Program-made: the position numbers and the translations under genes
Origin: an uncultured Flavobacteriales bacterium
GTDB taxonomy: Bacteria > Bacteroidota > Bacteroidia > Flavobacteriales > BACL11
Direction of reading: 5' to 3'
Assembly (NCBI GenBank): GCA_950069165.1
Contig: CATMIT010000003.1
Coordinates: 1-40,719 of the forward strand
Length of the DNA: 40,719 nt
Shown here: positions 23,050 through 27,869 of the stretch, piece after piece
How the letters are laid out: every line of letters starts with the position of its first letter
How positions within the stretch are numbered: the stretch's first letter is position 1
The notes under the pieces: generated by a model
Told to the model about the DNA's origin: nothing
Seen by the model: the letters and a program-made list of their open reading frames with translations, nothing else
Database searches by the model: none

Positions 23050-24681
23050 TTACATCATTCCTGGCATACCGCCACCACCCATAGGAGGCATAGCTGGTTC
23101 GTTTTCAGGAATATCAGCAATTACGCATTCAGTTGTAAGCAACATTCCCGCCACTGATGCCGCATGCTCTAAAGCAATACGAACTACTTTTACTGGGTCA
23201 ATAACCCCTGCTTTGTAGAGGTTTTCGTATTTTTCTGTTTTGGCATTAAAACCAAAATCTTCTTTTCCCTCTTTTATTTTAGCAACCACTACCGAGCTTT
23301 CCACACCAGCATTTTCTACTATTTGTCTTAGTGGCTCTTCCACTGCTCTTTCAATAATGCTGATACCTGTTTTCTCATCTTCATTTTCAGCTTTTACTTT
23401 AGAAAGCGAATCAGCAGCCCTTACAATAGCCACTCCACCACCTGGAACAATTCCTTCTTCCACAGCAGCTCTGGTTGCAGCTAATGCATCATCTACTCTG
23501 TCTTTCTTTTCTTTCATTTCAATTTCAGATGCAGCCCCAATGTACAACACCGCAACTCCACCAGCTAATTTAGCCAATCTTTCCTGTAGTTTTTCTCTAT
23601 CATAGTCAGAAGTGGTGCTTTCAATTTGTGCTTTGATTTGGTTTACTCTTGCTTTAATATCCGATTTGTTTCCTGCTCCATTTATAATGGTTGTATTGTC
23701 CTTATCAATTATAATTTTTTCAGCTCCTCCCAACATTTCAATAGTAGTTGCATCCAATTTAAAACCTCTTTCTTCCGACACTACAGTTCCTGATGTAAGA
23801 ATTGCGATATCTTCCAACATGGCTTTTCTTCTATCTCCAAACCCTGGCGCTTTAACGGCTGCTACTTTTAGGGACCCTCTTAGTTTGTTTACTACCAAAG
23901 TAGATAATGCTTCTCCATCCACATCTTCTGCAATAATTAAAAGTGGTCTTCCATCTTGTGCGGTTTGTTCCAATATTGGCAATAAGTCCTTCATTGCCGA
24001 TATCTTTTTGTCATAAATAAGGATATAAGGATTTTCCAGTTCGGTTTCCATTTTGTCGGCATCCGTAATAAAATAAGGAGAAAGGTAACCTCTGTCAAAC
24101 TGCATTCCTTCCACTACTTCCACAGTGGTTTCCGTTCCTTTTGCTTCCTCCACAGTAATAACCCCCTCTGTTTTTACTTTTTTCATTGCTTCCGCAATAA
24201 GTTCACCAATGATGTTGTCATTATTGGCAGAAATTGCCGCTACTTGCTCAATCTTCTCATAGCTATTTCCCACTTCTTTTGATTGTTTTTTAAGGTCAGC
24301 AACAATAGCCGCTACTGCTTTGTCAATTCCTCTTTTTAAATCCATTGGGTTCGCGCCAGCAGCTACATTTTTAAGTCCTGAACTAATTATTGCTTGTCCT
24401 AAAAGCGTTGCGGTAGTAGTACCATCTCCTGCCAAATCTGCAGTTTTTGATGCTACTTCTTTTAGCATTTGTGCACCCATGTTTTCGATAGGGTCTGCCA
24501 GTTCAATTTCTTTTGCTACAGTTACACCATCTTTTGTAATGGATGGTCCTCCAAATTTTTTGTCAATAATTACATTTCTTCCTTTTGGACCTAATGTAAC
24601 TTTTACTGCATTTGCAAGGGCATCTGCCCCTCTTTTAAGAGCATCTCTTGCCTGTGTGTCAAATGTGATTTCTTTTGCCAT
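23050..24681 (-). CDS. groEL: chaperonin GroEL
   Basis: [42 protein letters not shown]-terminal GGGGMPGMM. Confidence 0.99.
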
Positions 24682-24708: not shown

Positions 24709-24990
24709 TTATCCGATTATTGCAAGTATGTCCGATTCCTTCATGATAAGGTAGTCCTCTCCATCATATTTAAGTTCGGTTCCAGCATATTTTCCATACA
24801 ATACTAAATCCCCTTTTTTTACAGTAATAGGATTGTCTTTTGTGCCTTTCCCTACAGCCACAATACTTCCTTTTTGTGGTTTTTCTTGTGCGGTATCAGG
24901 AATAATAATTCCAGAAGCTGTTTTGGTTTCTGCTGCAGATGGGTGCACAAGCACTCTATCTGCAAGAGGTGTAATTTTTGTTTTAGTCAT
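24709..24990 (-). CDS. groES: co-chaperonin GroES
   Basis: [59 protein letters not shown]. Confidence 0.98.
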
Positions 24991-25033
24991 TTTTTATTTT
25001 TTTAATTTAAAATTTAGTTCTGCAAACTATAAC

Positions 25034-25049
25034 TGCATAAAGCGTGCCA
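25034..25049 (-). promoter_or_regulatory. candidate sigma54 (RpoN) -24/-12 promoter upstream of groES
   Basis: Minus-strand TGGCACGCTTTATGCA; GG (25047-25048) and GC (25035-25036) separated by 10 nt, -24 hexamer TGGCAC exact; -12 to groES ATG about 45 nt. Confidence 0.7.
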
Positions 25050-25060
25050 AATGGGGCAAT

Positions 25061-25152
25061 GTGTAAGTTTGTCAGTTTTATTAGTGTTACTGTGTAAGTT
25101 TGTCAGTTTTATTAGTGTTACTGTGTAAGTTTGTCAGTTTTATTAGTGTTAA
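25061..25152. repeat. three contiguous 31-bp direct repeats (GTGTAAGTTTGTCAGTTTTATTAGTGTTACT)
   Basis: Units 25061-25091, 25092-25122 and 25123-25152, identical apart from the last bases of unit 3; abuts the secG stop codon. Confidence 0.97.
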
Positions 25153-25488
25153 CTATTGCTCTTCCTGTATAGGAGTGCCGACAGGCAAGTTCGGTATTTG
25201 CTGTGGCACAAGCGACTGATCGATTTGCTCTTGCATTATTGATTCTGGCTCATCTGTGTTTGTTCTTGGAATAGCAAAGTTAGAAAGCAAGCTAAGCGAA
25301 ATAAGTGCTATTGCCAATGTCCAAGTTGCTTTTTCCAAAAAGTCAGTGGTTTGTTTAGCGCCCATCATTTGGCTTGCCCCACCACCAAAAGTAGAAGAAA
25401 GTCCGCCTCCTTTTGGGTTTTGCACTAGCACAACTAACACCAGTAGAATACAGCAAATAATAATAAGGATTGCAAAAATTGTATACAT
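25153..25488 (-). CDS. secG: preprotein translocase subunit SecG
   Basis: Two TM segments; VLVVLVQNPKGGGLSSTFGGGASQMMGAKQTTDFLEKATW. Confidence 0.94.
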   Translation of the reverse strand: MYTIFAILIIICCILLVLVVLVQNPKGGGLSSTFGGGASQMMGAKQTTDFLEKATWTLAIALISLSLLSNFAIPRTNTDEPESIMQEQIDQSLVPQQIPNLPVGTPIQEEQ

Positions 25489-25489
25489 T

Positions 25490-26197
25490 TTATTTTTCTT
25501 TTAAGTCGTAAATTAATTTTATTTGGTTTGCAAAGGAACCACTTTTTTGTGGATATTTCAAACTTAATTTCTCATAAGCTGCTATGGCCTTTTTGTAATG
25601 CCCCTGTTCTAGATATACCCTTGCCAAAGTTTCGGTTACAATCTCCTGATTTTCTATTAAACTTTGCTCTGCCGATTTCGAAGGCGAGAAAAATTCTTCT
25701 CTTTTTGGCTTGTTGATCCTTGGCTCTTGCTCAATAAATTTGTTAATCAAATTTTCACTGCTTTGCTGTTTTCTGTCAATCTTTTTAACTTTTGTAAGTG
25801 CAAGCCACTCTGCAAAAGAATGGGTTTCATTTTCGGTGAATTCTAGTGGTTTGCCAATTTCCAATTCTTTTTCTGGGGTTGCTGTTTCTGGTTTTTGCTC
25901 TATCTTTACCATTTCTTTTTCAGCAGTTGGTTTCTCAATAATTTCCTCAGCAACTTTCACATTTTCAGTAATAAGATTGAAAAGTAGTTTCCTATTCCCA
26001 GCATAGGCAGCTGCCTTTCTGAGTTGAGAATTATAACTAATGCTATCGGTATTGTAAAGCCCTTTGGCGTAGAGAAGTTGCATGCTGGTGAAATAAGGAA
26101 ATGCCTGCAAACTAATGCGCATATCGGCAATTTCTGCTTTTCCAATATCCATTGGATTTTGTATATTTTCTATGAGTTTTTCGTTTCGCATTACCAA
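25490..26197 (-). CDS. hypothetical TPR-like protein
   Basis: C-terminal TPR-like ETLARVYLEQGHYKKAIAAYEKLSLKYPQKS; between lptE and secG. Confidence 0.75.
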   Translation of the reverse strand: MVMRNEKLIENIQNPMDIGKAEIADMRISLQAFPYFTSMQLLYAKGLYNTDSISYNSQLRKAAAYAGNRKLLFNLITENVKVAEEIIEKPTAEKEMVKIEQKPETATPEKELEIGKPLEFTENETHSFAEWLALTKVKKIDRKQQSSENLINKFIEQEPRINKPKREEFFSPSKSAEQSLIENQEIVTETLARVYLEQGHYKKAIAAYEKLSLKYPQKSGSFANQIKLIYDLKEK

Positions 26198-26697
26198 TTC
26201 ACCACTGCTTTGTTGAAAATATCTTCTGCCAATTCGTTTGTAATCTGTTCGATTAAATCTTCTTCAACATCTGCTAAACTTTGGCTACTAACATAATCGG
26301 CATAACGAGAAAATTTTTGCTCAAAATTTTCGCTTTCATCTTTTGTATTTTCAAACTTTACTTTGACCACAATGGTTAAGCGGTTTTGTGCTGCCTGCTC
26401 ATTGGCTTGAATAGCAATGGGCTTTATTTCATATTTTACAATTTCTCCACTAAAATTTAAATCGCCTTCATCTGCTTCCAAGCTAAGGTTGGTTTGCTCC
26501 AAAAAATAATCTTTCAGCCGTTCGGTAAACACCTGGCTAAGGGTAGGCTGAATAGTAGCTGCACGGTTTGGAAAATACTGTACCGAAACCGTTTTCACAT
26601 CCGGCGAAATGGATGCGCCAGTAAAAGAATAAAAGCCACAAGAGCTTAAAAAAACCATACTAAAAACAACTGCTATTTTGCTACATAATTTAGGCAT
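26191..26697 (-). CDS. lptE: LPS-assembly lipoprotein LptE family
   Basis: Lipoprotein signal FLSSCGFYSFTGASI, SVQYFPNRAATIQPTLSQVFTERLKDYFLEQT. Confidence 0.87.
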   Translation of the reverse strand: MPKLCSKIAVVFSMVFLSSCGFYSFTGASISPDVKTVSVQYFPNRAATIQPTLSQVFTERLKDYFLEQTNLSLEADEGDLNFSGEIVKYEIKPIAIQANEQAAQNRLTIVVKVKFENTKDESENFEQKFSRYADYVSSQSLADVEEDLIEQITNELAEDIFNKAVVNW

Positions 26698-27869
26698 TAC
26701 AAATCAAATTCTTTAATTTTTCTATACAATGTTCGTTCTGAAATCCCCAACTCTTCTGCCGCATATTTTCGCTTTCCTTTGTGTTTTCCCAAAGCCCTTT
26801 CAATCAATATTTTTTCTTGCTGAAAAAGGGATAAATTTTGCGAGACTTCAATGGTTTCTCCAGAATTTTTATTTGGCAACAAAGTTACATTTCCATCCGT
26901 CATATCATCAAATACTTTTGCAGAAGTTCCATCTGTTTGTCCTTGTTTTTGCATCAAATCCACAGTTATTTTCTTTAAATCCGTAAGATCTTTTTTCATA
27001 TCAAAAAGCACTTTGTAAAGAATCTCTCTTTCGGATAGCTCTCCGCTATTTTCTCCTTCAAAAAGCACAGGCATTTTCTGCTCAGTTGTACTTTTCGGAA
27101 TATAAGTATTCAAAGTATCGGCCGTAATATTTCTTTCTTTTTCAATAACTGAAATTTGCGCCACAAAGTTTTTCAGTTGACGGATATTTCCTGGCCAAGG
27201 GTAATTTTTTAGCATTTCCATAGCATCCTCACTAAGACGGATAGGAGGGGTGTTGTATTTGTCGGCAAAATCGGCTGCAAATTTTTTGAAAAGCAAATGT
27301 ATGTCTTCTTTACGATTTCGTAAAGCAGGAATTTGAATACTAACAGTATTCAAGCGGTAAAATAAATCCTCTCGGAATCTTCCTTTTCTAAGGGCCTCTT
27401 GTATATTCACATTGGTAGCCGCCACAATCCTTACATCTGTTTTTTGTGCTTTGGAAGAGCCTACTTTCATAAATTCACCACTTTCCAAAACACGCAACAA
27501 TCTTACTTGTGTAGATAATGGTAATTCTGCAACTTCATCTAAAAAAATAGTACCACCATCTGCCACTTCAAAGTATCCTTTTCTGGAATCGTGCGCGCCA
27601 GTAAATGCCCCTTTTTCATGTCCAAAAAGTTCCGAATCAATAGTCCCTTCTGGAATTGCGCCACAGTTTACAGCCACATAATTGTTGTGTTTTCTTTTGC
27701 TATTCTGATGAATTATTTTTGGAATACTTTCTTTTCCCGTTCCGCTTTCGCCATACACAAAAACAGAAATATCGGTAGGGGAAACTTGCAAGGCTACATC
27801 AATTGCACGAATTAGTTCAGCATCATTACCAATTATTCCAAATCTTTGTTTTGCCTGTTTTGTATCCAT
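26697..27869 (-). CDS. sigma54-dependent transcriptional activator (bEBP), AAA+ and Fis-type HTH, no N-terminal regulatory domain
   Basis: GESGTGKE Walker A near residue 40, GAFTGA loop (27594-27611), GGTIFLDEVAELP, NYPWPGNIRQLKNF, C-terminal KRKYAAEELGISERTLYRKIKEF. Confidence 0.95.
   Translation of the reverse strand: MDTKQAKQRFGIIGNDAELIRAIDVALQVSPTDISVFVYGESGTGKESIPKIIHQNSKRKHNNYVAVNCGAIPEGTIDSELFGHEKGAFTGAHDSRKGYFEVADGGTIFLDEVAELPLSTQVRLLRVLESGEFMKVGSSKAQKTDVRIVAATNVNIQEALRKGRFREDLFYRLNTVSIQIPALRNRKEDIHLLFKKFAADFADKYNTPPIRLSEDAMEMLKNYPWPGNIRQLKNFVAQISVIEKERNITADTLNTYIPKSTTEQKMPVLFEGENSGELSEREILYKVLFDMKKDLTDLKKITVDLMQKQGQTDGTSAKVFDDMTDGNVTLLPNKNSGETIEVSQNLSLFQQEKILIERALGKHKGKRKYAAEELGISERTLYRKIKEFDL

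Follow-up and report, generated by a model that had tools for sequence, protein, structure and literature searches.

The gap between secG and groES in the window (the whole 40,719-nucleotide stretch of DNA analysed here, which is one entire contig of the draft genome of a marine Flavobacteriales-type bacterium) is occupied by an array of three contiguous, genome-unique 31-bp direct repeats (25060..25152, minus strand). From comparison with related sequences we propose, with a probability of roughly 0.8, that the units are sites for a sensor-less sigma-54 activator (bEBP) that would activate groESL via sigma-54, and that the site was tripled by recent duplication. The initial annotation had already read the array as an upstream activating sequence for a bEBP, and this reading is supported by the conservation of the core site, its helical phasing, the lack of site and promoter at groES in the rpoN-lacking genomes of one reduced-genome family and the presence of a sole strong bEBP.

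The array is 93 bp long and consists of units at 25060-25090, 25091-25121 and 25122-25152. Two of the three are identical and the third deviates at its last base alone, beside the secG stop codon. The earlier description of three contiguous, near-identical 31-bp units was thus accurate except for the start of the array, which lies at 25060 and not 25061, and the units do fill the secG-groES gap as had been claimed, reaching from the secG stop codon (end 25153) to 10 bp short of the -24 element. Read along the minus strand, the secG stop codon is followed by three copies of GTAACACTAATAAAACTGACAAACTTACACA (the first starting with T), TTGCCCCATT, TGGCACGCTTTATGC (a -24/-12 sigma-54 promoter), a short leader and the groES ATG. 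Tandem Repeats Finder scored the array at 184, compared to 76 for the runner-up tandem repeat of the window. No further copy of the 31-bp unit was found in the 1.46-Mb, 121-contig draft genome when up to three mismatches were allowed. A CRISPR or dispersed repeat was rejected, as the units are contiguous without spacers and absent elsewhere in the genome. A search for inverted repeats across 24900-25400 found none, so both a terminator reading of the array and an HrcA/CIRCE operator (a TTAGCACTC-N9-GAGTGCTAA inverted repeat before groES) were also rejected.

The window genes given with coordinates here all lie on the minus strand. The start of groES (24709..24990; ORF plus homologs) was placed at 24990, and the groEL ORF (23050..24681) is a homolog of groEL in relatives, where that gene likewise comes after groES. 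The upstream neighbour, secG (25153..25488), was assigned from its ORF and conserved synteny, and the closest named records with secG relatives were mostly Flavobacteriales metagenome or single-cell genomes. Beyond it lie a TPR-like gene (25490..26197; weak TPR matches, below the Pfam cut-off) and an lptE-like gene (26191..26697; PF04390, 75 bits), giving the order miaB-like gene, bEBP, lptE, TPR-like gene, secG, groES. The -24/-12 sigma-54 promoter, TTGGCACGCTTTATGCAG, is located at 25033..25050 on the minus strand, with TGGCA at 25049-25045 as its -24 element.

Each unit carries one conserved site of the form TGWCA-N3-TGWCA, represented in the window by TGACAAACTTACA. The window unit reads TGACA-AAC-TTACA, and its second half-site, TTACA, departs from TGWCA. 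The proximal (25062..25074), middle (25093..25105) and distal (25124..25136) cores, all on the minus strand, are 25, 56 and 87 bp upstream of TGGCA, respectively. To place this site in a wider context, 89 distinct secG-groES gaps from Bacteroidota in which the secG-groES-groEL order is conserved were compared. A -24/-12 promoter (TGGCAC-N5/6-TTGC-like elements) was kept before groES in 80 of the 89 gaps, and TGTCA or TGACA occurred no more than 110 bp upstream of that promoter in 76 of these 80, counts that come from related sequences and do not represent independent events. TGACA/TGTCA and the overlapping CTGAC were the most enriched 5-mers (TGACA in 76/80 regions against 8.9 expected). The consensus of the proximal site in the window's own family was CTGACA-N3-TTTCA, and in reduced-genome relatives the site was often a perfect palindrome, either TGTCATAATGACA or TGACATTATGTCA; TGWCA-N3-TGWCA is the form that unifies these sets. 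Two family members (L024/G014 and L028/G018) kept rpoN and a bEBP, yet had no recognisable sigma-54 promoter or site at groES; G014 retains both at dnaK and G018 retains both at lon. A separate arrangement was seen in eight gaps (L042, L043, L045, L048, L049, L058, L060 and L075), where TGTCA half-sites form part of a terminator-like hairpin downstream of secG, with a T run behind it, so that a single sequence might seem to act as both terminator and activator site.

When the regions before groES, dnaK and lon were pooled, with the window excluded, site-to-TGGCA distances fell into clusters at 25.4, 36.1, 46.2, 56.2, 66.5, 77, 88 and 110 bp, with a best period of 10.51 bp (R = 0.95). As relatedness inflates raw counts, the test was rerun on the distance clusters; when eight cluster positions were drawn at random, about 1 set in 10,000 was as periodic. 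The three window copies all deviated from the mean phase by no more than about 1.3 bp and are therefore in phase with the promoter, in agreement with the initial suggestion that equivalent sites face one side of the helix. This phasing fits what would be expected of an activator that contacts the polymerase on a fixed helix face.

Three copies were found in the window genome alone among the gaps examined; relatives mostly have a single one. In its three congeners (G001, G002 and G003; loci L011, L005 and L006, respectively) a single site lies 25 bp before TGGCA, exactly as far from it as the proximal copy is in the window. Judged by position, the proximal copy is the ancestral one, and the two distal copies would be extra, because the congeners carry one site at the proximal copy's distance, and recent, because they are identical. 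They look like a recent tandem expansion, as was first proposed and as the single-copy congeners support. We also scanned upstream of the proximal site for a second site, assessing significance against shuffled sequences. A second, diverged site was present 30-31 bp upstream in six gaps from three other genera (L013, L018, L019, L020, L021 and L022; P ≤ 0.05 each), and a weaker one at 32 bp in L032. Among the remaining best matches, only L033 (22 bp) reached P ≤ 0.05. A three-turn spacing therefore occurs outside the window's genus as well, although a single ancestral event may account for it in all of these relatives.

A serious competing explanation, to which we give somewhat less than an even chance, is that the site is a functional enhancer whose triplication reflects neutral slippage with no change in groESL expression. 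The near-identical and hence recent copies, the restriction of three copies to this genome among the gaps examined and the ability of the proximal copy by itself to reproduce the congeners' arrangement are all compatible with this. However, the 31-bp period holds every copy in phase with the promoter, and other genera have retained a second, diverged site 30-31 bp away. These points are also compatible with neutrality, as chance would place a neutral duplication of this size in phase.

Scanning genomes by pattern matching revealed the same site and promoter upstream of groES (76/89), dnaK (34/50) and lon (18/42), and upstream of none of the 338 other genes. Genome-wide matches in relatives preceded groES, dnaK and lon, plus a small gene before lon in several genomes. 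One element is therefore common to several chaperone and protease genes, as in a heat-shock regulon. In the window's own genome, the TGACA-N-TGGCAY pattern gave few targets and the TGTCA orientation recovered dnaK; the matches with a plausible target were groES and dnaK. Another match (G000:C4, also seen in G002) was probably due to chance, the next ORF being 123 bp downstream. As lon was not found in the draft assembly, its control is deduced from relatives. The small gene (L173 and L158) encodes a protein of ~95-100 amino acids without a Pfam match. In several family members it immediately precedes lon, and it also lies directly before lon in L235, L243, L244, L245, L249, L251, L338 and L339. 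In G013 and G015, a sigma-54 site and promoter precede it. Sigma-54-like promoters with TGTCA were also observed before a clpC-like gene (L370, G038) and two similar lipoprotein-like genes (L377 and L381; G045 and G038, respectively), and from these upstream sequences the clpC-like and lipoprotein-like genes are possible further members of the regulon.

The proposed reader of the array is encoded four genes upstream of groES (26697..27869, minus strand), and its gene is near groES in relatives too. The protein has an AAA+ domain (PF00158, 225.6 bits), an AAA lid and a Fis-type HTH (HTH_8, 45.9 bits), has GAFTGA in its translation and lacks an N-terminal sensor domain. The search of the genome turned up no other strong PF00158 match, the remaining ones being weak, and a single rpoN was present (G000:C62; PF04552, 167.5 bits). 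Across 37 orthologs, most of them sharing about 50-70% identity, the HTH recognition segment ISERTLYRK was invariant and the linker variable. This invariance fits a conserved target site but does not prove it, since the segment resembles many Fis-type HTHs. Titration by free chaperone is a speculative way in which the bEBP might sense its signal.

Co-occurrence of these components was examined in a reduced-genome family (f16), with genomes mostly of 200-600 kb, which are probably insect symbionts. Here, rpoN and a strong bEBP co-occurred with one exception, G060, in which a strong PF00158 match lies in a 281-residue open frame (G060:C1:18664-19149) and rpoN was not detected; this is possibly an activator decaying after sigma-54 loss. 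The -24/-12 pattern was found at groES in 12 of the 17 rpoN-bearing genomes examined and the strict dyad in 10 of the 17, with several near-matches among the others; G058 and G113 have rpoN and no recognisable groES promoter or site. Neither the groES -24/-12 pattern (0/11) nor the site (0/11) was found in the 11 genomes lacking rpoN, which reflect few independent losses, so that fewer independent tests stand behind 11/11 than the figure implies. A paper on Walczuchella describes it as unusual for symbionts of this kind to keep rpoN and suggests a role in nitrogen use (PMC3971599). The pattern in f16 suggests instead that chaperone control lies behind rpoN retention.

We consider it unlikely that the TGWCA sites bind another regulator of these promoters, be it a repressor or a different activator, in place of the neighbouring bEBP. 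The link between protein and site is a prediction, and larger genomes of the order encode several strong bEBPs, so orders with many could use a different one. However, a sigma-54 promoter requires a bEBP, for which one strong candidate was found in this genome; site, promoter, rpoN and bEBP have been lost jointly in the reduced-genome family; and helical phasing suits an activator touching the polymerase. That the array is non-regulatory (a remnant of the secG terminator, a spacer or an assembly artefact) is very improbable: it does lie directly 3' of the secG stop codon, in a 121-contig draft and in a gap that a TGTCA-rich terminator-like hairpin fills in other Bacteroidota, but the region has no inverted repeat, relatives show both conservation and phasing of the core, and a 93-bp array is shorter than a typical read, while mis-assembly usually collapses repeats rather than expanding them.

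Under the preferred reading, activation by the neighbouring bEBP, RNA polymerase-sigma-54 would sit at the -24/-12 promoter in a closed complex. The activator would bind one site per 31-bp unit, always on one and the same side of the helix with respect to the polymerase, and its AAA+ ATPase would open the closed complex, turning groESL on. The same circuit would also control dnaK and, in relatives, lon. Ancestrally there was presumably one site (in some genera two, about 31 bp apart), and the recent tandem duplication would have produced the three in-phase sites seen here, which could raise the local concentration of activator and thereby expression or sensitivity. More broadly, we put at slightly better than even the chance that groESL, dnaK and lon of Bacteroidota are run by one dedicated sensor-less bEBP at phased TGWCA-N3-TGWCA sites beside sigma-54 promoters, a heat-shock-type system that would explain rpoN in some 300-600 kb flavobacterial insect symbionts and that the window lineage would have tuned with a tripled enhancer. 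If true, this would name the activator and enhancer of a sigma-54 chaperone regulon hitherto predicted from promoters alone, in a major phylum, and offer an alternative to nitrogen control for rpoN retention in flavobacterial endosymbionts (PMC3971599). The natural series of phased distances and the one-to-three-copy difference between congeners would also allow direct tests of how enhancer dosage and phasing act.

Sigma-54 promoters have previously been predicted for GroEL, GroES, DnaK, GrpE and ATP-dependent proteases of Bacteroidota, with the strongest enrichment in Flavobacteriia (Carrera-Reyna et al. 2025; PMC12316311). In contrast to the present analysis, the passages of that work consulted name neither an activator nor an enhancer site for these genes, and describe no phasing or repeats. 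Our literature search, which most subscription papers fell outside, turned up no activator or enhancer for such promoters in Bacteroidota. A role of sigma-54 in controlling the chaperones of this phylum had already been predicted; what appears to be new is the activator and its site, together with the phasing and the tripling. HrcA/CIRCE and RpoH are known controllers of groESL and dnaK and share these targets with the system proposed here. Unlike HrcA/CIRCE, there is no CIRCE-like inverted repeat and the promoter is of the activator-dependent sigma-54 type. Like PspF, a sensor-less bEBP of envelope stress, the window bEBP has no N-terminal regulatory domain, consists of AAA+ plus HTH and would have a stress-type role. 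However, its HTH is preceded by a long linker of variable sequence, a phage-shock context was not seen, and identity with PspF was rejected (273.2 bits against a model cut-off of 443.55). The arrangement resembles the classical sigma-54 enhancers, the upstream activating sequences of NtrC, NifA and PspF, for which helical phase matters: in both, upstream sites accompany a -24/-12 promoter and an AAA+ activator with a Fis-type HTH. It differs from them in its chaperone targets and in the three identical tandem copies of the window. The proximal site, at about -44 from the inferred start, is much nearer the promoter than most known enhancers, whereas about -75 and -106, where the window's two further copies lie, are within the more usual range.
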